Source: Hypomesus transpacificus (lineage: Eukaryota; Chordata; Actinopteri; Osmeriformes; Osmeridae). From it: 64,000 nt of DNA. The position numbers and the translations under genes were made by a program. This document shows, one piece after another, positions 1-59,003 of the stretch. Location of the stretch: contig NC_061078.1 in assembly GCF_021917145.1 (NCBI RefSeq), positions 6,460,547-6,524,546 on the forward strand. Direction: 5' to 3'. Each line of letters starts with the position of its first letter. Position 1 is the stretch's first letter. Under the pieces are notes generated by a model that was not told the DNA's origin, searched no databases, and saw only the letters and a program-made list of their open reading frames with translations.

Positions 1-2901
1 TGACAATGATGAAAACAGGGGGTAGGGGCACACAGGGCCTTAACAAGGCAACGTCCTCCATCAACATGAATGTAATACAGTTGGTAATACAGTTGACCCA
101 GATGGCAATAAGACCGTGCTGAGGCCACTGTGTTTAGTTGGAGATGAGACGGGCTACTATGTGGTCCAAATGGGCCGGGTCTATGGCTGTCAATCAGCAC
201 CAGGGTTATGCAGAGGTATTGTTAGATATGTGGAATAAGTCATGAATGCTAGTCATGTTCCTGCACTAACATAGAGGTCATTAGAAGTGTATTATAGAAT
301 CTATTTGCCACCGCCCTCTGCTTAGAGTAAAATGCTAGGACAGCACTGGTCTTATCACACAGGCACGCATGTGAGGTTAGACACGCACTGCATTTTTTGT
401 GAAGCATACAATCTCCCTGTCAGAGCTAGAAGACGAATCATCCCACTAGTTTAATTAACATCATCATGGCTTTGTGGTTCTCTGAGGAAATCATGGGTAT
501 AGTGGAGGAATAGCATTTGCATTCCCGCTCCACGCACCATCACACACCATGACTCTGTAGCAAAATATAGGTTGTTGTGCCATAAAGTGAAAAATAGGCG
601 GCACGAAATAAGCAGGCAGGAAAATCCAGAGTTGCTCTCTTATTATCACAACCTTATCACAGAAGAACGGAGGGACAACGGGAGGGAAATAGATGGGTGT
701 AGCACTTCACTGTCCTCAAGAGAAGGGGAAAGGCTTTCAATAGAGCATATCAGGGCCACTAAATCAGCTCGTCTGCCAGGGCCACACTGTCTGGAGAAAG
801 AGGGAAAACATCCTCATGTTTGCCAGACGCATGCTCATAGACCCAATTCCAGGAATATCTCTAAATATCTTCTCCGTTGGCAGTAGCTGCTGTACTGCTA
901 TGTGAGACAGATACACCATGCTATGCAAGCCCACCAAGAGCATAGCACATACCACAGAAACAAGGCCACTGCCCAACAGGTATGTGGCTAATGACCTAAC
1001 AAGCTAACTAGCTTGCTGCTGATAAATATCTTGCTAACTTGTCGCTTATGCCGACTAGTTAACTAGCCTTTTGCTGCTAACTAGGTAGCTACTTTGCTCT
1101 GCTACTGAGTCAAAGTAAAAAGAGGGGGACAATACAAGAACTGGGTAGCCTTCAGCATGCAAAGGTGCTGTTGTCAGCAGCTGGGAAGCTGAGAGGTAAA
1201 ATGGGTTTATTTCAAGAGACAGACGCTGACATTTTGAGTGTGTCAAAGAGCAGAGTTTGAATAGCCAAGGGTGGACCTTCGAGGGTAAGAGATATTCCAG
1301 TGGGAGGCAAGAGAGAGACCTTCCCTTCCCCCTCCAGGTGAAACACTATAAGTTGGGAGGGGCAGGGTTAGGTTGTCCAAAAGTCATCAGATTACCTTTC
1401 GTTCATTCTCTGTCTGTAGGACTGACCTACAAACAGTGGAAAAGTCACAGCGCTTCTCCTTCCAACATGCAAATGACTCGGCAGGTGTCCTCACCCCAGC
1501 AGCATGCATTGTTCTGTGAATGGCTCTGCACGCTCTCTACAGGTCTCAGTCTAAAGCGATAGGCGCTGTGGAAGACCATCATCTCTGTGATGCTGATGGC
1601 CAGCTGAGGAAGCAAGTTTATGGAATGTGTCAGCACTGACCTGCGTAGCTAATGGACCTGGATCTAATCACCAGGAAGCAATCTCATGGACCCAATCCAG
1701 AAGCTTCTCTAGTGCCCTTATAGGGAACTGTATTTAGCTTTGGCTAGCCCAAGGCAGCAGCGAAATGGTCAATGGCCATCGGATACTTCTGAGGACATGT
1801 AACTCATCTGTCTCTCAACAGTCATTCACAGTAAAAAATGTATACACCAACAACAAAAAACTTGCTGAAGTAGGTGAGGTTTTTTTATGTTGCACTTCCA
1901 ATGTCAATATCACTTTGGCTAACTCATACACATATGACATGTATAGAATTGACGAAGAATATCTGGCTGCTGGATATATTCCAGTAGGATTCACTGGCAC
2001 TTCCTCAAATGACTTCTGACAGGGAGACTTTGAAGGCATCTCATTGATCTAGTCTTATGAAGATGAGACTACACGGTCATTCATCTTTCAATACTCTGCA
2101 CTTGTTGTGGCCTATTTACTACTGTACCGCTACATTTGTCGAAAGGGTTATCCAAGGGCTTAGAGAGGCAGTCGCTGAAACAGATGTAGTCTTACCGGTT
2201 AGGGTCACTTCCTGAAATAGTAGAGCTGTGGTTTTCCTGCCATCTCAAAGGCCTCATCTACTGTAACAACAATGATGCAGCTGGTTAGGTCATAGAGACC
2301 AAATCAGAAACAGTTAGACATGTGGGCATACTGGAGATGTGAAGAACTGTCTTACTGTAGAAGTAAATTCAGTCCTGTCCACCAATGTCAGATTTCATTA
2401 GCTTCCTGGTCACACGCACGAGTTAGCTGGCCATCCCATCTGAAAAAGTTCAGCTCATTTGGCTTCAAGTCCATTAGCACGGGCAATTCTCTGGTCTGCT
2501 GGTGGCATTGGTTCCTAATATTTTGCACTATATTAAAATCAATAATTGTGAGCTTATTCTGAAAATCGTTTTAGACTTTTCTAAGCACATAAAAAACTTT
2601 GTTCTAATTGTGTTCCAAAAGTGTAACATCACTGAACACAAACATCCTGATACATTATGAGTAGGAGTCTGGCAAATTTGTTTTGTGTTGTTGCTTTGGA
2701 CAGCATACGTTTTCAGAGACAAACCACTCAGCCCTCTCTCGAAACTGTCAAAGTGCAATTTCTTTTTCAATCTTCCTTGTTTATGATTGCAGCCAATTCT
2801 GCTGTTGGGTTGATTGAAGACAATGCAATTCCAGTGGGTCGTATCAAGCTGTTTTACAGCACATAAAGCTAGAAGATTCCTTCAAAAGTAGGCACAATAT
2901 C

Positions 2902-3283
2902 TAGCCTGGCTGCCAGCCCAACTTCTCCCCGGCCACAAAAAAATTTGTTCGGGAAGTTGGGTCTGGAGGGTCTCGTATTGGGGACAACTACAGAAAACCA
3001 GAATCGGGACGGACCAATGAAATTGCCAGGGCGGGCTTTACATGATGATGGACAGATGATCAACAGTAACGTAATCAACAACGTCACGAAAGAGCGCTTG
3101 GGTTTAATTCATTTTCAACAAACAACATATTACGTTGCTCTGATTGGTTGTAGGTCTATCCAATTGCGCGAAGAGGCATTTGTTTTACGAGTTCGGTTGA
3201 AACACGCCCCGTAGTCACAGCCCAACGGAGAGTTTTCAGACTCATATTCTGACTAGAATTATGAGTATGACAACGTCAGGCTA
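2902..3283 (+). mobile_element. 382-bp non-autonomous DNA element with 9-bp TSD
   Basis: Element starting TAGCCTGG and ending CAGGCTA, so the termini form a short inverted repeat. It is flanked by a perfect 9-bp direct repeat CACAATATC (2893-2901 and 3284-3292), which is a target-site duplication. It is a shorter relative of the element at 26843-27363: both share their outer 150-200 bp on each side, but this copy lacks the helicase-like open frame in the middle. A subterminal palindrome lies near 3243-3268. Nine-base duplications fit Mutator-like or Merlin-like transposition. No transposase is encoded. Confidence 0.75.
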
Positions 3284-5597
3284 CACAATATCAGCACTTC
3301 TCCCCAACTTCCGTCCTTCCATGTCACATCACTTTGCAAATTCACACCTCAGAAGTAACCTTTATGACTTATCAATTGGAAGTGAAGGGTGAAGGTTCCC
3401 TTGCCTAATAGTAGCTCAATAATTTGGCTAAGTATGTCTCCTAACCGGGTCATTTCCTGTCTTCTTCTGCACCCAGTATTAAGGGGGTCTCTATTCATTC
3501 CCAGCTTTGGCAAACACACTTCACTGCAGTGACCCCAGTTTTCCTCCACATGCCAACTCTGTGACTCTGCCCTGCTCCCCCAACAATGGACTGCACTACT
3601 GTACTCCAATGCACACATTGTAGTCATAGCAAACTGCAGGTAGCCTAAATCCAGGCACATGGTCTGCATGATGTCAATACATTGCTACCAAACGAAGAAT
3701 GTAGCTGAGCTTTAAGCCAGCTCTGTGTGCATTTTTGACAGTATTAGCCTATCACAGCATTTCCATGTAGGTTCCTTTCGTTTAGCAGACATGGATGTAA
3801 ACAATATGAAGTTCAAGCCGGGACACGCACGGATACACATTGGCTCTGTAGCTCTAGGCTTGTCAGCGTAATCGGAATCATTTCACTTTTTCCATAAACA
3901 TCTAAAATATTTGCACTTGATGGTGCTTTGGGACTTTTCTCTATACCAATTAAAACAAAAACCAAAAAACATTTTTGAACCAGGCCTGAATAAACTTGTC
4001 ACCCTACCCCAAGAATGCAAGCCCAGCACTCGACCACAACAACTAAGGGCAGTCTGAACTTTTCAAACCACTGCAACTGTTTAGTCTGGAGCCTGCAGCA
4101 TGCTCAGGCTTCACCAGCATCAAAGAGCACTGTGGAGAGAGGCAGAGGGGGGGGGAAGAGATCTTTTTTCAGGGACCACAGTTTCAACACTGAAATATAA
4201 GCATGGGGGTTCAAGGCTGAAATAAAGAGGCGTAGAGGAATGAGAAGAGCTTTGCTCGCCAACCACTGTGCCGAAGCTGGGAATGAAAGCAGAGCAATTA
4301 AAAGATGGAGTTGCTGCTTGCAGATAAAGGGCTTTCCGAACTAGGCTAATAAAACTGCAAATAGAGGGGAATAATTTGGTCAGGGAATAGGCCTAATGTG
4401 AAAAGGACTGACTTTGCAAGTAGGGCGTCTGGTCTTCCTCCTGGCCCTCCACAGGCCAGGGTTGATTGTAAAATAATCTTGTTGCAGTAATGTGTTGCAT
4501 GCACGAGGAGAAGGTCACAGAGCACACTGGAGTTCTGAAAACTCTGCATCCTTTCAGGCAGCGTGTCTGCTAAGTGCAAGTCACGGCAATACAACTCACA
4601 TCTGGGAGGAAAGACACAGTTTTGAACACAGACTTGTCTTCTCCATCTTGATTTGCTAAGCCATGTCACACCCATCCTCCAAAGATCCCAAATTACCCCC
4701 TCCGGACAGATTTTCCACACTGAAAGTATTTTGTACTTGGAAACCACTGTAAGCCAGGATGAAAAACATCAGTGATGATGTGACCTCCGCAGCCTTGTCA
4801 GGCTGCCCCCCCCCCTCTTTCTCTCTCTCCTGCTCTCAGAAGCCTTCTGGAAGGCTGCAGCAGTTGACGTCACACACTCAGCTTGGAGGTGAAACGCTTG
4901 CTAGCCAGCACCTTATTCTCATTCTAATCACAGCATCCACCTTGCTTTCCTAAGCAGCATGCAGCACACACACACACACACACGACATGGCCTTAGGTGG
5001 TCAGCCTTGTCGACTCCATCTGTCTGAGGAGAGAGAAAGACTGGTTATTGACAGCAATCACTTCATCTTCAACATAACCCCTCCTGCTGCCGTCCCTCAC
5101 TGGTCGAGGATGTAGGCTAGAAAAAATCTCTTAAAAAGTTAAGACATTGAAAAGTAAAGTGCTTTGGTTGTTGGTTGTGGGCTGACATTTAGAATAGGCT
5201 CGACATGATTATGGCATGATAATGGGCTCCTTCCAATCCGATGGAGGGGTGGACTTGAATACAAAGTCCTGCATTTGTCGAGGTGCCCCCAGGGCTGGAG
5301 TGTGTGTGGGTGTTTGTGTGTGGCATCGATCTGGGATAGAGACGGTGTCAGTGTGTGTTTCGTCTTTTTGTTCCCATCCTCTAATAGGATAAACTCTGGG
5401 GGAGCCCTCTCTCCTTCTCTTTCTTTCCGTTTTCTGGGCCTGGCCTCTGCAGAGATTGAGATGGAGCTCCGTGGCAAGGGGCGTAGTGACACAGGCGGTG
5501 CGGCATGAAACCCGGGGCCACATAAACCATCCATCCCTGGGCGCAACGGGCATGCACTGCGACGGGGAGATAACACAGAAATCAGAGCCGCCCCGCA

Positions 5598-7694: not shown

Positions 7695-10133
7695 CAGGAC
7701 GGAGTGAGAAGAAGCGAGAGATGAGAAACGAGAAAAATGAACTACTAAACATGACTCACAAGCCTTAAACACAAGTCTCCCACAGACCCTTCTCCTCTAG
7801 TAGTCTCTCTCTCACTCCCCCACAACAAAACAGCCTACTCTGAGGACTAAAGACTGATGAACCATTGAGTTCTTCCTCTCCGTTCCCTGTGGGCGCCTTC
7901 CTCGTCCCTGGGGAGTCTTCCTCCAGATCAGTCACGCTCACCCTTTTGTTTACGGCTCATCCGTCTGTCAGGATTCTGCTCAAAATGCAGATGAGCAGAC
8001 GAACGACACCGGCTGATGCCAGGCAGACTCCGACACGCGGCAGCTGCCCCCAGCCTCGCGAGCGAGCGTCAGCGCTGATGATAGCGCTGCTGGGGTGTTG
8101 GGGAGTGGGAGGGGTTCGAACTGGGTCCCTGCCTAGAGCAGATGAGAGAGATCTATAGGAGCCATTTACCTCTTCAGAAGGCCACAGCTGTTACCGAGTT
8201 GGAGCGAAGTCATTATTTCAATAATTATGGTCCCACTCAGGGCCACGTTGGAGGAAGCTGCTGAAAGTCCTCGCCTCAGCAGATTTGAGGATGGCATTGT
8301 TGGGTACATTAGGTGGGGGGGGGGGGGGGGGGTGAATGGGGTGAATGCCAAGCATCCAAACATTTCTAAAATGCCAAATCAGAATTGAATGGTTACCATA
8401 CTTTTTATGATCAGAGTAGCTAGTCAAGCACCCCTCTTCCCCTCCCCTCCACCCACCACAACTGTGTGTCTGCAAACAGAGCAGAACACCGATGTGTAAT
8501 AAAGATTGATGGTCCTGGTTAACTGTGTGGTTTTTCTACACGCTGACACTGGCGTGGCACACTAGGCTGGCACACTGGGGCTGCAGCGTTGTCATGGTTT
8601 CAGATAACCAAAGCAAAACCAGAGACAGGAGTGAAAACAAGTTAATAGAATTTGAATACTGGAGCATGTCTGCTCGGCTGAATGGAGCGGAGTCAAGGTG
8701 TTGTTAGGCTTCTAGAGCGAGTCTAGATGCTGGGGGCATTAAGCCAGAGATGACATTTCAAATCCATCCTTTCACCAGTGTGAGAAACATCACGGCTTTA
8801 CTCGAAATCATGGCTAATAAAACAAACACACACACAACTCTGCCATCTCAGTAGATTAGAGAGGCTCAGAGAGAGAAGACAACTAAATGTTTCATCCTAC
8901 AGATAAAAGGCACAGGCCAGCCATAGAACCGAAGACAGAAATGAAAAGAAGATGGGTGGGGGGGAACTAAACTGGACTCAATAAAATGGGTCACGAGTCT
9001 TATCAGCAGACATAACAGCTACCGTGTCTCTGATCATCAGTGTGTCGCTGAGGGGTGTGAGAAACAGTCATTCTTAGAGGGCAGGGTGGATTCTTTAGTT
9101 TGCACTGATGTGTGGACTGCTCCAGTGATTTAGAAAGGACAGGGAGAAGGGAAAACAAGATGACTCTCCCAGTGCGATGGCAGTAGAGAGTTAAACCACA
9201 TATGGCTATAAACGTGTGACTGATTTGGGGTTTGGGGAGGGATTGGACCTTAACCTGACTGAACATGTAGTATTTCAGCAGTATTAACCTACTAAACAAA
9301 CTCTTAGAGTTGGAACTTGACAAGGTCCAAGACTGAAAATGCTGCTCAAGGCCTTTAATCTAAGAGAGAATTAATTACCCAGCAAAACATATTATAGCAT
9401 TTATAACCTCTTTTACAGTTAATTCGTCGAATCAGCAACAAAGATATGCGGTGGACGACAAAGTAAGACGTTGATAAATGATTATGATCATTAAACTGAT
9501 TCATTCACATAGCAATTTGGCTGATAAGAATCCCGACAAAAAAAATATTCAGTTTGGGGAAAGTGTAGATACACACCTCTAGCTCCCTCTACTAAAGGTT
9601 TCATAATTGTGAAAACACTCGCCTACAACAATGGGGGTGAAAATATCAGTCCTGTTGTCCCATATGATCAACATCGCTTAATCCCTGACGTACAAATACA
9701 ATGTACTCCTCCTGAAGAGTCGATACTGCCGAGGGTCAGGATAAGGTCCATCAAGACTAAAACAGACATAAGTTTTTATATCTGATGACAATCTCACACT
9801 CACAAGCCAAGTTGCACCGTTAACAGGATTTCAATGTATTAATTCCGTATGCAGAGTTGTAAATGGCAAGTGATCGATCTGTGTTCGTTGCAAATGCTTT
9901 CATCAAAATATTGCAACGCATGGCAAAAAGGCAAAACATGTTAATGTCAACACGGGTACAGTTAACTAAGAGTATATGGTGCACAGACTTCGACATTAGC
10001 TTGTGTTCTTTTGATTGTCGCATCAACTCTCACACAGCCAACACAACCAAGCAGCATTGCTTAACCCTATTTCAACACATGAAAACAAGGGGAACGGCCT
10101 CGCCCAAACTCCAGCATGCGTACCTCTTTTCTC

Positions 10134-10441
10134 TCCTGAAAACACTCAAGCACGGCTAGGTTGTTGGTCCAGGTGTTCTTCGGACAAAGCCGGGTCAAGT
10201 CCTCCCTGCAGGCCTCCTCTTCTGCCAGCTTCCAGCCGGCTGTCCTCCGTGGCTGCGAGGCCGCGGCAACCGGGACATCTTTGACTGGGACTGCCGCTCC
10301 GTTAAGCCCAGGAGCGTTTTGTTGGTTACCGAGTCCATTTCCAATTCCATTATTTTGTGTTTTAAATGCTTGAATGGTACAAATGCAGAATGACACGGAC
10401 ATCAACAGCAGAAGCAGCTGAACACGTCTACACGCCGCCAT
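10134..10441 (-). CDS. GLG1: Golgi glycoprotein 1 (MG-160/ESL-1), exon 1
   Basis: First coding exon of the Golgi sialoglycoprotein that binds FGFs and is also known as E-selectin ligand 1. The reverse strand gives an N-terminal signal peptide (MAACRR followed by a leucine run and a hydrophobic stretch to about residue 25). A low-complexity Asn/Gly/Gln/Pro region follows, then the start of the first cysteine-rich repeat with CREDLTRLCPKNTWTNNLAV, which is diagnostic for GLG1. The ATG at 10441 has a good context (A at -3, G at +4); an in-frame GTG upstream at 10480 is not a start. The exon ends in GAAAAGAG followed by a gtacgc donor, phase 2. The remaining exons are outside the window. The gene is transcribed towards the window start. 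Confidence 0.93.
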
Positions 10442-13099
<2,658 letters not shown>

Positions 13100-16867: not shown

Positions 16868-19800
16868 TCATGCCTTGGTCTTGTTTTGGACCGGCAGGTA
16901 GAGCTTGAACTCTGCAGGCAGCTCGTCCTCAGAGTAGAGGCGGTCAGAGAAGTACACCCGCCGAATACGGCAGTTTGCGTGGATCTGAAAAAAAAGAGGA
17001 CATCACACAGGAGACAAGTCCTGCCACAGTAATGACGAGAGGAATATGTAAATGCAATCAGAATCAATCAGAACGAATGGTCTGGACAGGGACTGAAAAA
17101 CGGCCCGGGACTTTGAAACACAAACAGGTGTTGTATCACCCGATGCATGACTCTCTGGATTGGCACCCCCTCGCGGGAGCGCGCACCATTCAAAGAGTGA
17201 AGGATTTCGTCTTGATATCGCATCCGAAAGAAAAAGGGGAGACAGAAGTCTCACATTATACCGTCTTTGTTGTTGAATTCAAGAGAAGGATGTCTGTTAT
17301 CTGTGTAAATATCAGATGCTATTTTCAACACAAAATCCTTAAAATTCGTCATTCAAACGCTATAGTAACGAACGCGAACCAACATTCTTGCTCCACGACA
17401 TCGCATTCTGAAGACATATACCCCAGTGTGATCATGATTACTGCTACACAAAATGTATTTTGTGTAGCAGGTTCAAAGTATTTCACATGGCATGGCTCTT
17501 TATACTAATGTATAGGTTCAAAGGCATGCGATTTTAATGCAGTTAGCCTGTACGTATAGGGTGGCTTCTTCAGACAGGTCGAAAACAACAGCCTTCTGAT
17601 CCAGAATAGGTTATCAGCTGTCCTGAAAAGGGACCAAAGGATCACATGCCGAGACTACAAAAGACAAGTACTAAAAACAATGTATCAACCATGTATCAAC
17701 ATCATTAGAACCATCAAATCCTTTTTTAAGATAGGTAATATTATTCTTATTGTTTAAGTCAATGAAATAAATGAAAAAATAAAACATCATACACATGTAT
17801 TGGTATTCAATTTATGCTATTAAATGTACACCACGATGGCGTAGAAAAGATAGAAACATATGCGGGGGGAGAGCATTTCATGGCAGGTTTTCCACTAGAT
17901 GTAAGTGCAATGCACCCCCTGCTAACCCTGACTAGGAAAGTGTCACATGCCTGAAACTTGCTGTGCTTACTCATACTAATGCCCTCAGTGTACATTAAGA
18001 ATCATTTGATGCTGGGATATACAGAACAGACAATAGAGGGGGGGTGCATCTCACGACAGGCTTGTTGTATTCCTTCTTGTCACAAAATGCACCCCCCGCT
18101 AACCCTGACTAGGAAAGTGTCACATGCCTGAAACTTACTGTGCTTACTCATACTAGTGCCCTCAGTGTACAGTAAGAATCATTTGATGCTGGGATATACA
18201 GAACAGACAATACAGGGGGGGTGCATCTCACGACAGGCTTAATGCACCCCCCGCTAACCCTGACTAGGAAAGTGTTACATGCCTGAAACTTGCTGTGCTT
18301 ACTCATACTAGTGCCCTCAGTGTACAGTAAGAATCATTTGATGCTGGGATATACAGAACTGCCTTGACATGAAAAAGTACTTTGTGAAGATGTACCTCAA
18401 TAAACATTAACAAAGAAAATAACACAAAACAGAGTCACGTATTTATCATACACTAGATTGTATTGTTCAAGTTCAAGTTTTTTTATTTGTCAGGTACACA
18501 GAACAACACAAGGTCAGACTGGGCACTGAAATTCTTAAGACAAGACAACGCAAGCACCTGTCATAACATATAAGTACACAGAACATAATTTATATCTATG
18601 CTGAGCTTAAAAAAGTGAAACTTCCTAAATATACAGATAGCAATAACTAATTGACTATACTAACCCTAATACTAAAACTTTCTAAATTACAGATTCCAAT
18701 AAATAATACGCTATACTAACCCTAAATGCACATAAAACCTATTTCAACCCTATAACCTATACTAACCTAAGTGGAGTACAGTACAATAGTGCAAAATTGC
18801 AGATCAGTGACTGTCAGTGACCATACAGGAGCCTGGTGGCGAGGTACAGTGAGGTACACTAGTGCAATGTTACTGGTAGTGCAACCAGTAGCTGAAAGTG
18901 ACAGTGTATAAGTGACTAGTGTGCAGTAAATCAATGTCCATATCAGTGTCAGTTCAGAAGTCTGATGGCCCTTGGGTAGAAACTGTTGTCCAGTCTGTGT
19001 GTGCGCGACCGGATGCTGCGGTAAAGCCTGCCAGAAGGCAACGGGGTAAAGAGACTGAAGGATGGGTGGGAACAGTCTCTTAGAATCTTGCCGGCTTTTC
19101 TTAGGCAACGTGTGTGGTAGGTGTCCTGTAGGGCTGGGAGCTTCCTGCCAATGATGAACTCAACAGAACGGACCACACTACGTAGGGCCTTGCAGCACCC
19201 TCCCTCATGCACGTCAGCAAGACAGCACATCGTGTGGTGTCCTTGCCTTAAAGGTGAATATACTGTACTATACATTACTTAAACAATGTGGTCAACCTCA
19301 AAGTCCGTAATATCTTTTTTCTTAAGGATAACTACTTTCATGCATGAATGTTTGTATGTATGAATGTTTGAGTATTTACTGTAATGGACCTTTATTTTTG
19401 TGGTTTAGGATTTTGGATCTTGTCAGACTATGTATTTATGTGATCATGCTTATCTACTAATCATGTTATCTTTAGTTTGCTGAGAAAATAATGAAGGGAG
19501 AGGCAATAAACATCAAAACAACACAGAAGGCAGTGAACAAGCTGAGGCTAGATGTAGCCACTGCCCTCCTCCGAGAAACTGGTGTGTTATTGTTTTAGCT
19601 GATCGTTGTCAATCTCCAAGCTCTTGGAAGTGCTTGTTTTTTAATACAGATGAGAGCATACAGTCAGTGAAGTACAATAATGAAAAATGTCATTTAACTG
19701 TTAACTTATTTGGTGGAATATTAATGAATACTGTTTGTCTTAACAGACAATCTCAGCAACCTGTGCCACTACTGTGGGATGGAGGACAAGGATGAGCCAC

Positions 19801-22800
19801 TATGGGTAATATTTAAAAAAATCATTACATATTTTTCAGTTTTTAGACTTCAAGATTAGTTTGATTTCTGTGATAATTATAAATTTGTATTTCATTATTA
19901 CAAGAATGACTAAATCAGAAACAGTACGATTAACACTCAGTTTAATAGAAGTGATGGTGCCCAAATTAAAGGACTTCCATTGTTAATCAATTTTCTAAGA
20001 TCTGCTGCGACATCTGTGGGAGATGGTACCACCACGAGTGCGTGCAGAGGCCTACACTGGAGGAGGACTACTGGTGCCTTGCATGCACATAATCCCCTAA
20101 ATAAGAAATGTGTTGTCATAAGTTAATTTGTCTGTATTGTTATATATTAGTTTGTGTGTCAAACAAAGTTTAATTATTATTTATCTATTTTCAAGTCATT
20201 TCGTATGACTTTCTGTAAACATGTTTTTTTAAATGTTATTTAATTTGTTTTGGAATTAATCATTGTTAGGCTGGTTTTAAGCTGGTGTTATTAAAATAAT
20301 ACTTTTGTGAAACAAAGGCTTCCTTTATATTTGGGGATTACCTGCATGAGTAAGTTTGGTGAGTGTGTGCATTGCACAAGATGGGGCTAGTATGAGTAAG
20401 CACAGTAAGTTTCAGGCATGTGACACTTTCCTAGTCAGGGTTAGCGGGGGATGCATTTTGTGACAAGAAGGAATACAACAAGCCTGTCGTGAGATGCACC
20501 CCCCCTGTATTGTCTGTTCTGTATATCCCAGCATCAAATTATTCTTAATGTACATTGAGGGCACTAGTATGAGTAAGCACAGCAAGTTTCAGGCATGTAA
20601 CACTTTCCTAGTCAGGGTTAACTGGGGGTGCATTTTGTGACAAGAAGGAATACAACAAGCCTGTCGTGAGATGCACCCCCCCTGTATTGTCTGTTCTGTA
20701 TATCCCAGCATCAAATGATTCTTACTGTACACTGAGGGCACTAGTATGAGTAAGCACAGTAAGTTTCAGGCATCTAACACTTTCCTAGTCAGGGTTAGCA
20801 GGAGGTGTATTAAGCCTGTCGTGAGATGCACCCCCCCTCTATTGTCTGTTCTGTATATCCCAGCATCAAATGATTCTTACTGTACACTGAGGGCACTAGT
20901 ATGAGTAAGCACAGTAAGTTTCAGGCATGTGACACTTTCCTAGTCAGGGTTAGCGGGGGGTGCATTTTGTGACAAGAAGGAATGAAACAAGCCTGTCGTG
21001 AGATGCACCCCCCCTCTATTGTCTGTTCTGTATATCCCAGCATCAAATGATTCTTACTGTACACTGAGGGCACTAGTATGAGTAAGCACAGTAAGTTTCA
21101 GGCATGTGACACTTTCCTAGTCAGGGTTAGCGGGGGGTGCATTTTGTGACAAGAAGGAATGAAACAAGCCTGTCGTGAGATGCACCCCCCCTGTATTGTC
21201 TGTTCTGTATATCCCAGCATCAAATGATTCTTACTGTACACTGAGGGCACTAGTATGAGTAAGCACAGTAAGTTTCAGGCATGTGACACTTTCCTAGTCA
21301 GGGTTAGCGGGGGGTGCATTTTGTGACAAGAAGGAATACAACAAGCCTGTCGTGAGATGCACCCCCCCTGTATTGTCTGTTCTGTATATCCCAGCATCAA
21401 ATGATTCTTACTGTACACTGAGGGCACTAGTATGAGTAAGCACAGTAAGTTTCAGGCATGTGACACTTTCCTAGTCAGGGTTAGCAGGGGGTGCATTAAG
21501 CCTGTCGTGAGATGCACCCCCCCTCTATTGTCTGTTCTGTATATCCCAGCATCAAATCATTCATACTGTACACTGAGGGCACTAGTATGAGTAAGCACAG
21601 TACGTTTCAGGCATGTCACACTGTCCTAGTCAGGGTTAACGGGGGGTGCATTGCACTTACATCCCATGGAAAACCTGCCATGAAATGCTCTCCCCCCACA
21701 TACGTTTCTATCCTTCTACGCCAGCATTATGTACATTTAATAGCATAAATTGAATACCAATACATGTGTATGTATAGGGTGGACAGGTCTGAAAACAGAA
21801 TAGTCCATGGTAGGTGAGGGATTATAATGTTTTATTTTTTCAATTATTTAATTGACTTAAACAATAAGAATAATATTTCCTATCTTTTTTGATGGTTCTT
21901 TTGATGTTGATACATGGCTGATACATTGTTTTTAGTACTTGTCTTTTGTAAGCTAGGCATCTGAACCTTTGGTCCCTTTTCAGGACAGCTGATAGCCTAT
22001 TCTGGATCAGAAGGCTGTTGTTTTCGACCTGTCTGAGTAACCCACCCTACGCACAGGCTAACTGCATTAAAATCGCATGCCTTTGAACCTATACATTAGT
22101 ATGAAGAGCCATGCCATGTGAAATACTTTGAACCTGCTACACAAAATACATTTTGTGTAGCAATAATCATGATCATACTGGGGTATATTTCCTCAGAATG
22201 CGATGTCGTGGAGCAAGAATGTTGGTTCGCGTATACCGTTTGAATGACGAATTTTAAGGATTTTGTGTTGAAAATAGCATCTGATATTTACACAGATAAC
22301 AGACATCCTTCTCTTGAATTCAACAACAAAGACGGTATAATGTGAGACTTCTGTCTCCCCTTCTTCTTTCGGATGCGATATCAAGACGAAATCCTTCACT
22401 CTTTGAATGGTGCGCGCTCACGCGAGGGGGTGCCAATCCAGAGAGTCATGCATCGGGTGATCAAGACGAAATCCTTCACTCTTTGAATGGTGCGCGCTCC
22501 CGCGAGGGGGTGCCAATACAGAAAGTCATGCATCGGGTGATACAACACCTGCCCACGACCGTGTATTATCATCTATATATTTTTTTAGCATTTTGCCGCT
22601 GCCGTTTGAACGGCCGTTAGGGAAATCTCCCGACGGCCAGTCCGACCCTGTTCACTGGTATATTTATCTTAGCTGTCTTATGCGTGTGATACAGTGGCTG
22701 AGATGGGACCAACCTGGACCCTCAAGGTCTCGATGTAATTGGTGCCGTAGGCCCGGCGGGTGAAGTCCGACAGGTTAAACTGGATCTGGTTCCAGCCGTC

Positions 22801-36669: not shown

Positions 36670-39242
36670 TTACTCCTCAAAGAGTTCACTGTCTGACTCT
36701 GAATCGTTGACCTCAGTGTCTGGTTCATTGTGTACAGCATCCATCGCAGGGTCAGAACTCTGGACTGATTCTGGGGGGATCGAACTCTCGGGTATTGCTT
36801 TCTCTCTGATTTCGGGGTCCACTATCGGTTCTAGTTTTGGTGGTGGTTCCTCTGCCGGTATCAGGCTGACATCAGATATGGGTTCTGGATCAGTTGTGGT
36901 CAGACTGCCCAGCTCTGTGCTGAGGTCCACTTCTGGAGCAGCTACTTCTCTTTCAGGCAGCACAAACTCCAGAGGTTGCAGAACCATGCAAACATCAATG
37001 CAACCAAGACTGTCATACTTGTGTACTTGTGTTGGAGGAACACCTAGACAACAGGATAAAGAATAATCATGTCAGTTGATAGTGGGTTGCACTTTATTCT
37101 GAAAAGGTTTGATCAGGTAGCACAAAAAAAAGATGGTACAGTTTCATATAAAATTGTATGAGGGCTGTGATAGCATGGTATACCGAGTATGAGAGCTAGC
37201 TGCGCAGGGGGGAAGAGGACTTGGAGACAGCGGTTGAGGAAAGGCACCATGTCCTCTGCGAAGGCACAGCAGAACTGGACAAACAGCTCCTTCTCCCTAC
37301 TGCTGAAGGCAGACTCCTCAGCACGGTGGAACACCAGGATGAGCTTGGTCACCTGTTGAAAGGAGGAGAAAGGGATAATACAGTCATGAAATGACAAGAT
37401 ACAATTCATTTGGCACTAACATGTCAACAGCATTTCACTTGGCTAAATGAACAACATTGCACACCCCAAAACACGTATCTAAATGGTAGCAGTCAGGAAA
37501 GGTAAAGTGCATATGTAGTAAGGCGACCTCAGACAGCAAGAGCGCCATCTATATCATATAAGAATTCGTAGCACAGCATCGCACCTTGAGAAGAGCATCC
37601 TCCAGATACTTGGTGACCTCTTGGGCTAGACCTATGGGGCAGCACAAACGCAGGTCATTGAAGGCAGTCAGGATGTTGTTGAGGAAGCAGGCCAAAGGGG
37701 GGAAGTCGAGAAGGGCCATGGGGGGTTGCAGGGTACCAGGCTGGGTACTGGGTGCCACAGGAGGAATGGTGCCACCCAACATGGAGGGCAAAGAGATCAG
37801 CGTATACATGTTCATGTCTTCCTGGAACTTGTCAACTGCCTCCTGGATGGCCTTGCGGAATGTATCTGTGGCCACTCGTTGAAACATGGGTGCCAGCTGT
37901 CCACGGAAGTCCGCCCCAACTCTGCTGAAGGACAAGCCGAAGTACATGCACTGGCCCAGCAGGGAATCAAGCCGACATCCCACCCCTCGCTGAAGGTCTC
38001 TATCCAGGGTCTCCAGGAACTCGGCCACCTTCTGCACAACCCAGCCATGGAAGATAGCGCTCTCGTTCACACCTTGGCCTCCAGGCGGCAGCAGCGGGTC
38101 CTCGTCAGAGAAGATAGCACGGTATTGGGTGATAATGTCAAAGAGGTGCACACGGCAGGCCTCAATGGTCTTGGTGATGTGGAAGTAGGGGTCATCATCG
38201 GGGACGGCGGCCAGGATGGAGTTCAGCCAGCTCCCACGAGCCTGGAGGAACTTGACTCGAAGCTCTGCCTCCTTGAAAACGTCCATCCTCCGCAGGTAGC
38301 CAATCACCCGCAAGCAGACAGGAAGTTGAGAGTTGCTGCGTAGCTGCTGCAACAGCTGGTTCAGCATGAGTTGAGCTGACTGACGCACCTCATGGACGAT
38401 TCCCTGACCGTAAAATAAAGATCATAAAATTAGTGCAAACATGAAAAGTTGTTGACTAATGAGACATGTTAGTACTATGGTTAGACAGAGAATACTATGA
38501 CTGTGCCTTCAGAGATCTAAACCTATTCCAAATATATGGCTGCCTCTTGTCTGCTATGCGACACTGTCAAAGAGCATTCCTTACTTGAATGACAGGCAGG
38601 GAAGAATGTTTCTTCTCCAATCTTTTTACATAAGCTGCCAGTTCCAGAGCCTCCTCATAGTAGCCGTTGCGTACGCAGGTGTCCATGAGCTGGGGAATCT
38701 CTAGAATTTCCAGGATCTCGGTGTGACGATTCAATGTGAGGCTGTTCATTCGCCGACTGACTCCGATCTCCTCTGCCTCCTTTATGAAACCCCTGAAGGT
38801 AGGGCAATAATCAAACAAGTTTATGACAAGTTTGTAACGATGGCACTAGTAAATGTTCGATTAGTAACCATTAGAGTGTGCACATCGATTTGACACATTG
38901 ATTTGACACTAACCTGCATTTTTCACCAAAGCTGGGCAACTTGTCAAGGAGTTTAGAAACGCTGCTCTCCACACGACCAAAGTCCTTGTAAATCTCTTCC
39001 GTGCAGTCAGCTGTTCGAATGAACGTCTTGTAGTTCGAGAAGGCAAGCTCCCGGGTTTGCTGCAATATCTGAGCTCTCTCCTCCGCTAATCTCTCCGGCT
39101 CCCGGTTTAATTTCTCTACACCGTAAGAACTGAGCTCAGACAAGTATGCTGCAAAATCCGGATTGTCCCTCCAGTTATCAGGGAAGCTGTCTTTGAATAT
39201 TGAAGCTAGAATACTCTCATCTTCCACGTCGACAGCTGCCAT
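36670..39242 (-). CDS. COG8: Conserved oligomeric Golgi complex subunit 8
   Basis: Lobe B subunit of the COG tether for retrograde intra-Golgi vesicles. Exons: 38914-39242, 38585-38792, 37585-38403, 37184-37352, 36670-37043; 632 aa (human 612). The N terminus ([20 protein letters not shown]) and helical region with [20 protein letters not shown] fit the coiled-coil Dor1-like domain. [20 protein letters not shown] and [20 protein letters not shown] are hallmark stretches, as is [14 protein letters not shown]-like [20 protein letters not shown] in exon 3. The C-terminal 120 residues are acidic and proline-rich with repeated PEP/EPPP motifs and are poorly conserved in the family. The large exon 3 encodes 273 residues. 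The gene runs convergently with NOB1. Confidence 0.97.
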
Positions 39243-40157
39243 GTTTGTAATCTGTCACTTCAACCCTGCAACGGATTTCCCGCCCAGCAATTTAGTAAAA
39301 ACCTTTAAAAATGACATATGTAACCACAATCAAAACGTGGAAAAGTCGATGTAAACATAATTTGTTTGTAGAATGTAGGAAACTGGCATATAAACTGCCG
39401 GAACTGCAGTCGCGTTGTGATTACGTCAGTAATTTGTGCAGTTGAAGAGGCGTCAACCTCAAAGGCTCAAAATACCTCAAAATACTTTAAAATGGCTATG
39501 ATGCAAACCCATTCAAACATGTCTGCGCCAGTTCAAGGCACGGTTTTATGAAAACGTATTTGATCTTAAACCTTTGTATACGGCATGCAGCAGTACGTAT
39601 TTAAAAGCAGCTGCTTTACCTACGAAGATACAATCCGGTACGCGTCACTGGCCAAAGAGAGCTCTCACTCTATTTCCGGGTTTGTGAGTTTTATTCCTTC
39701 AGAATAAAGCATAGTCTGTGAAGTGACCTAATGCGTTAATTCGCTGGTGCTAGCTCTAAAAACTAAAAACTATGGTTATATATGTTTATGATTTGTGAAA
39801 AGCAATAAAATAAACGAAATTCACATGACCACCACAACTGAACTACCAATACACATGTTGTTTGTAATGTATGAAACTTTGAAGCAGGCCTACCCAGGCC
39901 TACCCGTCGCTACGCTCCTGCTTTGAAGTATAATAGACTGGCATTGCTGCAGTGCTGTAACAGTGGAATGGAAGTGTACTACTGGTATTAACCTTGTTAA
40001 CCCTCAACTAATAAAAATAAATAGTCTCAAGACATTTATTTTGAAATTTGGTTCTGAAATCAACCGGAAGGAAGATTCCACAACCAAACTGGTTCACCCT
40101 CTTACACGTGGTTGCGTTGCTTTCTGAAGACTACATTTGAGTTACGAATTAGTCAAA
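39243..40157. other. COG8-NIP7 divergent intergenic region
   Basis: 915 bp between start codons of two divergent genes, so it must hold both promoters. No TATA box is evident and no other gene was seen. Confidence 0.5.
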
Positions 40158-42255: not shown

Positions 42256-45200
42256 TCACGCTATATTTAGTTTCTTCATTGTCCTCCACCTGTCCTTGAT
42301 GTTGACTGCAGTTCGATCGCCGAACGGATAAGACGCCTTGATTCTTTCCCAGTGGCCTTCGCCATAGCGGGCCACTCCTTTCCGTAACCACTCGGTCTCC
42401 TCAAGGGACCACATCTGCAACAGCGAAAACTTGACTCAACCAGACAATATTGAAAGTATGAGTTTGAAAAAAATAAAATAAATGCTCAGTAATTGAAAGC
42501 AATAACAGTTAAACATTAGAACGTGTGCTAAATTAGGCTTGGAGCCAAATGTAACAAACTCCGTCAGAGGTATCGGTCAAATGTTCACCCCGCACTGGGT
42601 TCGAACTTACCACCTCTGACTTCCCAAGCTCCATCACTACCAACTACGCCAACAAAAAGCTAGCGATTCCTTGACGCGGGTGGCCTGTTACATACCTTAG
42701 GAGTGAGTTTCACCGATACACACCAGCTACACAAACACGATGCAAAAACGTGGCTTACCCTCCTCTTGCCCCCTGAATTTCTCGAAGAGGAGCTGTCGCC
42801 TGACCCTTAACAGAAAACACTGATGTAAGTTTTTTTCAAAGACTATGTAACCTACTGTCATCACTAACAAATACACATAAACACAGACAGCTACAGAGAG
42901 ATAAATTGTGTGTATAATTGAAATACCGTCTTTGAGAGGCGTGTTAAAGAGCGAGTCTTCTTCACTCCACGTAGTCTTGATTCCCTTTGCATGATTTAAC
43001 AACTTTTTCCTTCAAAAGAAAAGAAAGCATTAAATGTTGGCACAACTACTCGATTCCTAGACATACCCACATTTAACACTATATAACCATTACAAGGTGA
43101 AGGACTTACTCACAGCAGAATGTTACAACCAGCAGAGAAAATCGGGGTCAAATGACTACACAGTGAATTTAGTTCCTAAACCTGGAATAGTCATGTCTTG
43201 TTTTGATGTTCTTTTTTCGTAACCTCTCATCAAAACATCAAAGCATTAACAACACCATCAAAACGTAATACTGTTTTAGAGTGTGTAAAAAAAATAAACC
43301 CTTTCAAATCAAACTTTAAGTTGTTAAAAAAGTTCACAAACCACTTATGGTGGGGGTCCCCCTTTTGAGGGGTGTGATTCTTCTGGGGGGTGGAACTTTT
43401 CTTGGCTTGTCTTTTGGGAGATCCATCTGAGGAGTCATCCAGAGCACACACGTCCACGTCACTTTCACTTGAAATCCTGCATGAGACAAGCACGGATTCC
43501 TTTGTACAGCTTGCGCAAAACACTGAATGACACTTGCATCCAACACGTAAACAAGGGAACAAATGTTTAGTTACTAAGGGCAATACCTATATACACGCTT
43601 TCTACTTACTCATCAACCTCGCTAGGGGCTGGTCGCTTGCGGTGCTTCCTGGTGGGTGTTCTGCAGGCTGGCTGAGAAGACAGGGGGTCCTCCAGACTTC
43701 TGGATGGTCCAGCCAGTTTCTCAAGCTCCACTACAGGTGGTTCCTGCTCAGAGGCCACTGGTTCCTGCTCAGAGGCCACTGGTTCCTGCTGGGACAATTG
43801 GCTGTCTGGCTCCATCACCAGCCTGGCCATAGTGTGCAGCTTACTGCGTTTCTGCAAGGTTCTGGCAACCTTCTCCTCTTCAGGGACCTCCTGCACTGTG
43901 GGGACAACCTTCACCAGGGGGACCTCCTGCACCATGGGAACAACCTCCACCAGGGAGTCTTCCTGCACCGTGGGGACAACCTCCACCAGGGGGTCCTCCT
44001 GCACCGTGGGGACAACCTCCACCAGGGGGTCCTCCTGCACCGTGGGGACTAACTCCACCAAGGGGTCCTCCTGCACCATGGGGGCAATCTCCACCTCTGT
44101 TGCTGGGTACTTGTTGGCTTGGAAAGCCTCCATTCTGCTGCCTGAGTCTCTTTGGGAAGGATCGTCCTGATCTGGCTCCGCATCCGAGCCCTCTAAGGGG
44201 CTGGGGGAAAGGCACAGGAAGAAGGGGCCTGATTCTTTTTTTTTCCCCTTCTGCCACTCGTTCTCCAGCCGTGCAAATGAATTTTCCTCCCCAAGCTCCT
44301 TGGCCAGAGCTGTGACCGCATCCACGACGTGCGGGCGATTCAGAAGAAGAGGAGGAGGGGCACTGCCAGAAATAGGGAGAGACATATAGTCAGGTAGTTG
44401 AGCGATTAGGGAATCGGGCTAGTAATCAGAAGGTTGCCGGTTCAATTCCCAGCCGTGCGATATAGACGTTGTGCCCTTTGGCAAGGCACTTCACCCTCCT
44501 TGCCTCGGGGGAATGTCCCTGTACTTACTGTAAGTCGCTCTGGATAAGAGCGTGTGCTAAATGACTAAATTTATATAGGAAGGGACAGGGGATGAGGAAT
44601 GGGGAGAGACAAGCCGAGTTAGACATCATGGCCCATAAACTAAAACTGTTGCCCAAGGGAATTTGACAATGTGAAATGTTTTGATTCAATGGCATGATGT
44701 GTCTGTGATTCTACCTGGTGTCAGGCTTGTCTGCCGGGGGCTGTGGCAGATCCACGCTTGCATCTTGCTCTGTTGTGTTCTTTTTCTGCTCTGCAGCCTT
44801 TCTTCCCTCGATGAGCTGTTTTGCAACCTGTAATTCATAGGAGTCATACTGGTTTATTGGCAAAACAATAAGGGACTATATGTTTTTGGAAACACTGGGA
44901 ACACAAATAAGGGGACAACAGTGTTTTAATACACTGCTGTAGTGTTATTCTAGGGCTCAAGATTTCCTACCCTGGACAGGAAAGGAACACTTTCAAAGAA
45001 CAGGCTCTCACAGAACTGCACCATCTCTTCCCTGAACTGCTGGTACGTAACCTGCTCAAGCACGACATGCTTGTTAATCTTCTTGTTGATCAGGCCCATG
45101 AAAATAGCTTTCTGCAAAAAAATGAAAAATGTGGGTATGTTATTTGCAAATGGCTGATTTCTACATGCTAATTAAAGGCCTTGTTCACATCTGGCATGAA

Positions 45201-48898: not shown

Positions 48899-51800
48899 TC
48901 AGACAGAGAACTCTGCCCCACCGTGGCGAGCACGTGTCATCAGAAGGCGACGCAGACGCAGGCCTGTGAAGGGGTTGAACCACAGCAGGGAGGGGGGGCC
49001 TCCAAACACGGCCCTCATCCCTTCCCAGCGGACACGGCGCTCCCAGGTGGGCTTCTCGTTCTTCAGCCGCTCGATCTCCTGCGACACACACACACACACA
49101 TTATATCAGCGTTTTTAAACGCAGGATTGGTACCAGGGAGGTATTCCTCTCTGAGACACGTGCAGTTTCCTCTGTGCCATAAACAGCAAAGCACTTACAG
49201 ACATTTAAACCCATGTGCCATTGCCATGGTGTATTCACCGTCACTTTCACTTGGCTCTAGTCTAGGCAGCTTGTGTATGCAGAGAGGCACTGTTGGCAGT
49301 GCCTTTGTACCCATGTATTCATGGGTACAAAGGGAGCTGGGAGGTCTGAATGATTAGCAGTTCAGTCACACTGATACATTTGTTTGGAGACTCAACAGTT
49401 CCTTACCTTTGTCATCTAGAAAGTGAGGGAGCAGTAACTGAAGGAGTGAGTCAGGCCCTGCAGTAGTATGACTCATCCTCACTATGAACTATTCTTTTTT
49501 CTGAAGGATGGTGGGAGAGGGAAGGGTGGGGGTAAAGGGTGTAACAGTAAATATGCAATGCATACTGTGGTCTCTAGAGGGAGGCAGGGGACAAATAGCT
49601 GACGAGTGCTTGTACAGCAAATGCATGTCTGCATCTATAGTCTGGTTGCATTTTTTCATTTTCTTTGATTAATTCATTAAAAAAAAAACTTTCATTCTCA
49701 TATTTATTTTAGACCATATTTATGTAAAAATCTTGGGTGTCTTAGACCTTAGCACAGTATTGTGTGTGTGCCCTGATTGAGCTTAAATTTCAAGGCCTTC
49801 CCTGATTGTGGTGTGTATTTTTAGAGCGTGTTCCTGTGGGTGGCTGAGATGGTGTGTATGTGTGGTTGTTTACGAGATTTGTGAAGGTGTGTGTGTGAGA
49901 GAGAGAGACAGACCATACAGGTGTGTGTTTGTGTGATGACTCACCGTCTCATCGTTGCAGATCGAGTGGATTTGGGTCCCGAACATGACAGTGGTGAAGA
50001 GGAGGAAGAGGACAGCTTCCAGACAGAGGAAAATCATGAGCATGACCGACACGGACGGAGAGAAGTCGCTGCACTCTGGGGGATGGGGCAAATGTGATCT
50101 GATCAATACACCCGTTAGGACAGTCATAGAATCTGAAGCCGATACCACTCTGAAGTTCCATTCTTTTACAGCATTATGATTAACACCGTGACCATTGAGA
50201 CACGACACATGATTAGAGTCAGCATTTCCTACAACACAACCAAAGTCACAACTCCTGTGCTGGGGTTTGACAGTTCACCCCCCATTTCCCCTGCTCCCTC
50301 CTGTGCTATAAACATGTGCTGTGCCTTGTCAACCTGGTGGAAGTCTATGTGTCGGATGAAATACTGTTCTCATCTACTGGTTCATGTCTCCAGACGGACC
50401 CACGAGGGAAGCTTAGATGGATGGTGGCTGTGAGGTGTGGCTGGCGTATTGCCCTTCTCTTACTTTCTCTTAGTTACTTTTCCTTTGAAGCAGGTGGTAG
50501 GAAGAGAAGTGCAACTCACCGTTCCACTGGACCTGGACACAGGTGAAGAAGTGGAAGACACTGAGGCCCAAGGCGTGGGCTGAGATCAAGGCTACATACA
50601 TCTGCAGGGAGGCGGAGGGGGCAGATGGAATTGGGAGAGAGAGAGAGAGTCATAATGTGAGCGTAGAGGGAGAGGGAATACATCTAAAAAGAAGAAACAG
50701 CAGGGAGAGTAAAGGAAACAGCGATGGAGACTGAAAGACAAAATAATTGGGAAGGAAAAGAAAGAATATGTGCTAAAGCTGGCTCTCCCTCCACTTACAG
50801 TGAACAGCACAAAGAACTTCTGATTCTTCTCCCCTACACAGTTGTTCACCCAGGGACAGTGGTGGTCCATCTTGCAGATGCATCTCTTACAAATACTGGG
50901 GGAAAAGAGACAAACCACAGTGCTCCGTCAGGGGCCTGCCCGCCTGGCAGCTGATGAAAACATGTCCATATCTGTCTCAAATGAGCTAGCAAGCTAATAA
51001 ACAGACACATTCCTTCATGGAATTAAATACACTGCAATAAAAAACATTCCGCAATTGCTGCTATGCTTGAACTGCGATGAGACATTTATTTCTCCATTAA
51101 CAGATGATGAATTCGTCCACAGACAACATCAAAACATTGGTGGTAAAATGCAGGATTGTTGGCACAGTCCCCTGAGCCGTTTCAGGAAGTAAACCTCCTT
51201 ATTAACCTCCCATGGAGAGAAGAGCCCATTTCCTCTCCTTTAATGTCACAGCTCAAATTGCTCCTCAATTAAACTGCTATTTCCACTTGTCAATAGCCCC
51301 CCCATTTGAGGTATTGCAGACAAATGAGAATCTAGATTGTTGGAGATGCAGAGCAACATGGCAACATGTGACACGCCCCTCTCATGTACATGTACAGATG
51401 TAATGTCTCACTTTCTAGATTAGTCACAAACAAAATACAAATTAAACAGAGCGAATGTACAACATGATTGACTAGATCAAACAAGTCCAAGAGGCAGTGT
51501 TAGTCCTAGCCAGTGTGTGTGGTGTGTCGTCCATCATGATGGGAGTCAGGTGGCTGAGCAGTGGAGAATCGGGCTAATAATCAGAAGGTCGCCAGTTCGA
51601 TTCCTGGCTGAGCTAAATGACGTTGTGTCCTTGGGCAAGGCACTTCACCCTACTTGCCTCTGGGGGGAATGTCCCTGTACTTACTGTAAGTCGCTCTGAA
51701 AAAGAGCGTCTGCTAAATGACTAAATGTAAATGTAATGACGGACCTGCAGTGATGAGCCCTCTCAGGCTTGATGCTGCAGCACTTGGGGCATTTGTAGAT

Positions 51801-58145: not shown

Positions 58146-59003
58146 TGAGTGGAGATGGTTGTGGACTTCAGGAAGAACACAGCCCCACTCACCCCCATCA
58201 CCCTGTGTGACTCCCCAGTCAACACTGTGGAGTCATTCAGCTTCCTGGGCACCATCCTCTCCCAGGACCTCAAGTGGGAACTGAACATCAGCTCCCTCAC
58301 CAAGAAAGGACAACAGAGGATGTACTTCCTGCGGCAGCTGAAGAAATTCAACCTGCCAAAGACAATGATGGTGCACTTCTACACAGCCATCATTGAGTCA
58401 ATCCTCACCTCCTCCATCACCATCTGGTACGCTGCTGCCACTGCCAAGGACAAGAGCAGGCTGCAGCCTATCATCCGCACTGCGGAGAAGGTGATTGGCT
58501 GAACCTGCCTTCCCTCGAGGACCTGTACACCTCGAGGACCCTGAGGCGAGCGAAGAAGATTGTGGCCGACTCCTCCCACCCTGGACACTCCCTGTTTCAG
58601 TCACTCCCCTCCGGTAGAATGCTGCGGTCCATCAGGACCAAAACCTCATGCCACAAAAACAGTTTCTTCCCTTCCGCTGTTGGCCTCCTCAACAAGGCCA
58701 AGAGTTCACACTGACTTTAATGACTTCACGTCTTAAAACAATTAGCATTTTGCACTACATTACAATTCCAGTAATATTTGTATTTTATATTGTTAATTGG
58801 CAACTTATATTTTATTTTATGACAACTCATATTTTATTTTATTGTATATTTTATTTGAATTGCATTCCACTTAGTATTGATAGTTTATGTATCCTTAGTA
58901 TAGTTATATGCTACATGTCTATTGTATGCACATTCCGGCCAAAGCAAATTCCTTGTCTGTGCAAACTTTCATGGCGAATAAATCCCTTTCTGATTCTGAT
59001 AAT
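58146..59003 (+). mobile_element. L2-like LINE 3' fragment
   Basis: End of a non-LTR reverse transcriptase ORF in two frames (58149-58502, then to about 58713), so broken by a frameshift near 58500. Recognisable motifs are VESFSFLGTILSQDLKWELN, YTAIIESILTSSITIWY, LEDLYTSRTLRRAKKI and NSFFPSAVGLLNKAK. The AT-rich 3' UTR ends in AATAAATCCCTTTCTGATTC plus TGAT, a typical short-repeat L2 tail. Five-prime truncated and inactive. Confidence 0.85.

Follow-up and report, generated by a model that had tools for sequence, protein, structure and literature searches.

A foldback element in an intron of CFAP20 of Hypomesus transpacificus, very probably a non-autonomous Ginger1-type DNA transposon

In the genome assembly of the fish Hypomesus transpacificus (437 Mb in 376 contigs), intron 4 of CFAP20 holds a large element with inverted arms; the stretch analysed, here called the window, is the surrounding 64,000 nucleotides (C19:6460547-6524546). 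It is very likely, from comparison with related copies, that this element moved recently, is non-autonomous and belongs to a teleost DNA transposon family of Ginger1 (“Gypsy integrase related”) type, whose terminal inverted repeats (TIRs) have grown into foldback arms that contain tandem arrays. Its architecture is that of a foldback element, with long TIRs composed of a unique outer part and an inner tandem array; the term denotes a design and not a clade.

The element is dispersed. With the outer left arm as query, at least 53 matching rows were found in the same genome, of which eight, counting that of the window itself, run the full length at about 100% identity; this is a lower bound, with 40 of 215 first-look candidates scored, and one copy may yield several rows. 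An earlier reading of the window by itself (the original prediction) had proposed a mobile foldback-type element with copies elsewhere, and these rows bear it out. The sequence sample consists of 20 stretches representing 18 other copies, plus eleven short end stretches. The shortest copy, L028, measures about 1.6 kb and the longest about 14 kb, and the cores vary as well.

Kinship is best read from two longer copies, C22:5307255-5319006 (L014 and L013; about 11.7 kb) and C13:2562917 to about 2576969 (L011, L027 and L039; about 14 kb), which are 98% identical over 11 kb. Both carry, in order on one strand, an N-terminal exon, H2C2, integrase core, GPY motif, proline-rich repeat, Ulp1-like protease and PHD finger, in what appears to be a transposase gene split into many predicted exons. 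The C22 copy matches the Pfam models Integrase_H2C2 (PF17921, 3.9e-15) and rve (PF00665, 9.4e-12), and both copies have the motifs GMDLIGK, LTDQGREF and LVERMNG (DDE), FLGPY (GPY/F, by motif reading alone), and HHHW, FLDPLG and QQDSTSCGV, read here as candidate Ulp1 catalytic motifs (H, D, Q/C). The proline/alanine-rich repeat that follows the GPY motif (L013:1051-1971) is an open frame of 307 aa in C22 and 321 aa in C13. Nested in the core of the longer copies is a non-long-terminal-repeat (non-LTR) retrotransposon of about 2.1 kb, a long interspersed nuclear element (LINE) with an RVT_1 domain (L013:5063-6705); it is missing in L019, L022 and L024, which are less alike (87-92%).

The description of Ginger1 (Bao, Kapitonov and Jurka 2010, PMC2836005) gives it a Gypsy-integrase-like transposase with YPYY, H2C2, DDE and GPY/F, a C-terminal Ulp1 or OTU domain and sometimes a PHD finger, and introns in the gene; its termini are TGTNR and its 4-bp target-site duplications (TSDs) are, in hydra, CCGG (75%) or CCGT/ACGG (24%), and the published TIRs and elements measure 40-270 bp and 2.6-7 kb (PMC2836005). 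In the fish family are found rve with DDE, H2C2, GPY, Ulp1 together with PHD, a CCGG 4-bp TSD and TGTNR termini. Hydra Ginger1-9_HM, of the Ulp1+PHD family, is described with the same transposase domains, termini, CCGG target and introns, whereas the fish family departs from Ginger1 as described there in its 1.2- and 2.2-kb arms with arrays and in its longer copies of about 12-14 kb, nested LINE included (PMC2836005). The vertebrate genes GIN1 and GIN2 are likewise reported to derive from Ginger1 transposases; they are host genes, whereas the fish family is mobile and has inverted repeats (PMC2836005, PMC3424704).

The termini and target site point the same way. A terminus pattern with 3 mismatches allowed gave 44 ends in the sampled sequence, or 41 outer ends once the 3 inner copies of duplicated termini are subtracted. 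Most read TGTTGTATCACCC, and the termini have mostly the form TGTTG...CAACA. The tetramer just outside is CCGG at 29 of the 41, against a background of 62 in 58,297 tetramers (window outside the element); the others are CAGG (5/41) and, once each, CAGT, CCAG, CCTG, GGGG, ACCC, TACG and CATG. Among 14 copies with both outer ends read, six have CCGG on both sides (L010, L015, L018, L020, L022, L024); the other eight are the window copy (CAGG/CCTG), L009 (CCGG/CCTG), L012 (GGGG/CCGG), L019 (CCGG/ACTG), L023 (TACG/CCGG), L028 (CCAG/CCGG), the C22 copy (CAGG/CCGG) and the C13 copy (CCGG and a degraded right end).

Some insertions sit in older repeats, so other copies of those repeats can serve as empty sites. 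The joined flanks of the window copy align across the insertion point to L021:595-723 (107/133) and L018:6057-5997 (54/65), and those of L010 to L020:1522-1656 (122/141), with a single CCGG in every case; alignments of single flanks to paralogues also have CCGG at the edge for L010 right, L016 left and window right. The ends, whose derivation had been proposed as a check, are definable, and the empty sites obtained are paralogous. On balance, the target appears to be CCGG-like with a 4-bp duplication, and copies without matching CCGG flanks would be in part chimeric, inserted elsewhere, or mutated in their flanks. In the window copy the outermost 4 bp on each side correspond to CCGG in the paralogous empty sites, and the element proper is 17129-22547: bounds of 17125..22551, as first drawn, do enclose the inverted arms and take in 4 bp per side that are not element. 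The alternative that CAGG...CCTG is part of the TIR, with no TSD, was rejected on the single CCGG of the window and L010 empty sites. At 17080-17128 and 22552-22632 lies the dispersed repeat, older than the window element, that received it; the L021 and L018 segments (L021:595-723, L018:5997-6057) are other copies of this repeat.

A recurrent departure at the target deserves separate mention: the five CAGG ends are both sides of the window copy (17125-17128, 22548-22551), L009 right, L014 left and L026 right, each with an A at position -3 when followed in the direction of the element; the reverse form, CCTG in that same direction, occurs once only (L034). This CAGG could be donor flank retained as a flap at integration.

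The window copy derives from a longer one by internal deletion. Positions 1-842 and 832-2027 of its core match positions 2604-3445 and 10201-11394 of the C22 copy; about 6.8 kb is absent, joining the LINE to the Ulp1 exon, and with it the integrase exons have gone, so that the end of Ulp1 and the PHD finger are what is left. A PHD-finger gene end in the core had been predicted, and the window exons do encode one, with a Pfam score just under the cut-off and a clear phmmer match to solved PHD fingers (3.5e-8). The identical junction is found in L012, on contig C11, and further breaks are shared by L009 and L010 (the second break) and by L015 and L023 (the third). That the window and L012 have one junction in common suggests mobilisation of a defective copy in trans, and the window derivative probably moved in this way.

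Several observations weigh against assignment to Ginger1. The window arms, at 1.2 and 2.2 kb, far exceed the published TIR range, which is not a defining rule. YPYY is at best partial: an exon at L013:4497-4730 is partly similar by eye, with no Pfam match. The window exons fall just under Pfam cut-offs, both for PHD (1.0e-4; 22.7 bits, cut-off 24) and for Peptidase_C48 (0.0029; 17.9 bits, cut-off 20.7), and the PHD exon of C22 reads AAICG where C13 and the window have CCDICG, so that the last C22 exon looks broken. Neither flank of the window copy is CCGG. Finally, six single-flank paralogue alignments have no CCGG at the edge (L014 left, L019 right, L020 left and right, L021 left, L026 right); in four of these (L014, both of L020, L026) the alignment ends 4-6 bases before the edge, while in L019 and L021 it reaches it.

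The design itself would also suit a P-superfamily (Galileo-like) or a Mutator-type foldback element, and a resemblance to FB and Galileo had been remarked on originally. Galileo is described with long TIRs, internal tandem repeats of variable number, deletion derivatives and chimeric copies with non-matching flanks (PMC3573991, PMC3688188), and Tetris, a foldback element of D. virilis with a proposed Mutator affiliation, with foldback arms and tandem units of about 220 bp (PMC4079207); in the fish family, too, the tandem repeats in the long TIRs vary between copies and between the arms of one copy. Ulp1 is not foreign to Mutator, some of whose elements encode it, and Mutator is said to account for most foldback elements. 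The target, however, is 4 bp, CCGG at the majority of ends, and not the 7-bp flanking duplication of Galileo, which belongs to the Drosophila P superfamily and has an unrelated, THAP-bearing P-type transposase (PMC3573991, PMC3688188), nor the 8-10 bp TSD of Tetris, for which the authors' account mentions finding no coding copy (PMC4079207). The longer copies have rve and H2C2 domains and the GPY motif, which speaks against such an origin unless these copies are chimeric, and ten peptides scanned, covering part of the gene, gave no match to THAP or to a Mutator transposase. The likeness is therefore one of architecture; kinship with Galileo is contradicted by the Ginger1 integrase-type transposase and CCGG target sites, and a P or Mutator origin is very improbable.

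A Ginger element in a fish is not in itself new, given that Ginger-labelled elements figure in annotation totals for teleost genomes (PMC4746887) and that Ginger1 relics are reported from frog, coelacanth, turtle and alligator (PMC9004415). For the Ginger1 superfamily the foldback arms do seem new: among the literature matches listed, no title or abstract opening names a foldback-type Ginger element, a scope that leaves aside subscription literature and Repbase entries.

Alignments confirm the predicted arms of the window copy, each with an outer part and an inner array: 17125-18359 (about 1.2 kb) and 20380-22551 (about 2.2 kb), around a 2-kb core. The outer arms are 93% identical in inverted orientation over 661 bp. 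Between the two arrays identity rises to 97% over 451 bp, and perfect inverted matching extends over 204 bp at most. There are 3 units in the left array and 8 in the right, the innermost of each truncated, and across copies 1-12 units per arm where an array was found. The units had been described as 177 bp long, each with an internal inverted pair. The tandem array is real; its period is a mixture of 177 and 155 bp, according to whether a 22-bp linker is present, and the pair ATGCACCCCCC / GGGGGGGTGCAT occurs in most units and not in all. Most units start with ATGCACCCCC(C), and GGGGGGGTGCAT lies near the unit end except in truncated units. GCACCCCC occurs in array units in both orientations and TGTTGTAT in many 177-bp units as well; the latter is missing from linker-less units and from some linker-bearing ones. 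Folding of one array unit as single-stranded DNA was unexceptional (z -1.36; 13 of 200 shuffles fold as well). Duplications of the element's own terminus are seen in four copies, at 22380-22539, L012:1925-1999, L022:1939-1998 and L024:1998-2012, with steps of about 80, 74, 59 and 14 bp; perhaps these came from aborted gap repair.

The arms also have a history of their own. In a tree of 25 outer arms, two of 22 inner branches are well supported and 18 are open, with a bootstrap that had not converged; one supported branch unites 9 rows as type A (100/100), the other 4 rows as a young type-B set (100/99). One arm of each type is present in the window, C22 and L015 copies, 94.7-95.4% identical to each other (95.4% in the window), while L009 and L012 have two type-A arms, 99.6-99.9% identical. 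Arms thus seem to have been exchanged or converted between copies, in the manner of chimeric Galileo copies. A foldback inversion of the L012 core relative to its arms was considered and rejected: both L012 arms being type A, the flip vanishes when the copy is read from the other side. The least credible alternative, that the structure is a local inverted duplication or collapsed satellite produced by assembly or duplication, with no transposon involved, could appeal to the difficulty of assembling long near-identical inverted arms and to the unequal unit numbers of the two arrays, and is extremely unlikely, since copies lie on other contigs (L012 repeating core and deletion junction), the ends are defined, with mostly CCGG flanks and with empty sites, and the window arms, 95.4% identical to each other, are each about 99% or more identical to arms elsewhere, so that the combination named at the outset as grounds for refutation, no other copies plus an assembly artefact, is not what was found.

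As a Ginger1-type element, the family might work as follows. An integrase-type transposase from a longer copy would bind the ends and excise the element, which would then be joined to CCGG with a 4-bp stagger; the window copy, its integrase exons lost, would be mobilised in trans; and the arrays would expand and contract by unequal exchange or slippage. The arrays may in addition hold secondary transposase-binding sites, by analogy with Galileo, whose arm repeats are reported, on biochemical evidence, to contain extra ones (PMC3688188). Terminus and unit resemble each other weakly: the terminal 92 bp and a 177-bp unit share the 8-mers TGTTGTAT and GCACCCCC, in the same order and on the same strand; among 5000 Markov-sampled pairs, 0.84% give such a pair within 60 bases and 12% any two shared 8-mers, the criterion having been set after the motif was seen. 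BLAST of the terminus against a linker-less unit found nothing longer than GCACCCCC. That the arrays bind transposase is a real possibility that falls somewhat short of an even chance; otherwise they would be by-products of slippage and unequal exchange. A broader reading, speculative and rather unlikely as a whole, would see a convergent foldback design in an integrase-type transposon: the units would carry a degenerate transposon end (GCACCCCC in both orientations, often TGTTGTAT), arrays of 1-12 units would be landing pads for the transposase that aid end pairing in an element of 12-14 kb, and the recurrent A three bases outside the terminus (CAGG for CCGG) would reflect donor-flank nucleotides kept as a flap.

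The host gene is identified by minus-strand exons in the window: residues 1-100 of a 101-residue joined query match residues 93-192 of solved CFAP20 (3.1e-65), and exons 1-3 were recognised by eye. The element lies between an exon that ends in LRVQ and one that starts with IHANC, numbered 4 and 5 in a count made by eye, so the original placement in intron 4 is correct. The intron has grown from about 0.3 kb to 5.7 kb, its splice sites, as read by eye, intact; the transposase exons are antisense to CFAP20. It is possible, from this anatomy, that the arms form long double-stranded RNA in the CFAP20 pre-mRNA. Co-option, in which the element is transcribed within CFAP20 and its long duplex is edited or processed and regulates the gene, would draw on the 204 bp of perfect and more than 600 bp of 93% inverted match within one intron, and is very unlikely: four arms elsewhere at 99.5-99.7% identity point to a family of recent origin, and any intronic inverted repeat would look alike.

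Table 1. Features of the foldback element and its host intron (positions in the window)
Feature	Position	Strand	Remarks
Host CFAP20 intron 4	16985..22713	-	5.7 kb, about 0.3 kb of it non-element; splice sites by eye
Left target-site tetramer CAGG	17125..17128	.	CCGG in paralogous empty sites
Left outer arm, type A, begins TGTTGTATCACCC	17129..17905	+	99.5-99.7% identity to four other type-A arms compared
Left array of 3 units (177, 155, truncated), with ATGCACCCCC at the start of each	17909..18359	+	
Core, left subterminal segment common to LINE-less copies	18360..18465	+	
3' part of nested non-LTR retrotransposon (LINE)	18466..19195	-	Bounds approximate; LINE 3' end carried inside deletion derivatives
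Internal-deletion junction, about 6.8 kb of longer copies missing	19191..19201	.	Same junction in L012
Rest of Ulp1-like (Peptidase_C48) exon, predicted	19201..19253	+	Boundaries by eye
Transposase exon, predicted	19476..19581	+	Boundaries by eye
Transposase exon, predicted, first half of PHD finger	19747..19805	+	Boundaries by eye
Last transposase exon, predicted, second half of PHD finger and stop	20000..20092	+	Boundaries by eye
Right array of 8 units (155/177 bp, the innermost one truncated), in opposite orientation to the left array	20380..21652	-	
Right outer arm, type B	21656..22459	-	With duplicated terminus, 98.9-99.3% identity to arms of C22 copy, L015, L023
Right terminus (...CAACA), with its terminal 80 bp duplicated in tandem	22460..22547	-	
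Right target-site tetramer CCTG	22548..22551	.	CCGG in the empty sites

Elsewhere in the window, frames at 10067-10528, 37549-39254 and 50592-50927, which are presumably GLG1, COG8 and a DHHC palmitoyltransferase from their resemblance, flank CFAP20 on either side. A minus-strand open frame at 43606-44418 encodes a 12-residue repeat, with 36-bp tandem units at 43883-44095, and the open frame at 58149-58502 resembles a fragment of a non-LTR retrotransposon.

If the Ginger1 assignment holds, the foldback design, behind which P and Mutator transposases already stand, would gain an integrase-type enzyme as its third transposase class. With its coding relatives, several classes of deletion, young copies that are nearly identical and some empty sites that can be read, the family would make it possible to test in a vertebrate why such arms arise, be it through binding of transposase at multiple sites, drift of the arrays, or tolerance of long elements. 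Scattered through the genome, its near-identical inverted arms are possible substrates for chromosomal inversion, as Galileo arms are in Drosophila, and possible sources of long intronic duplex RNA.

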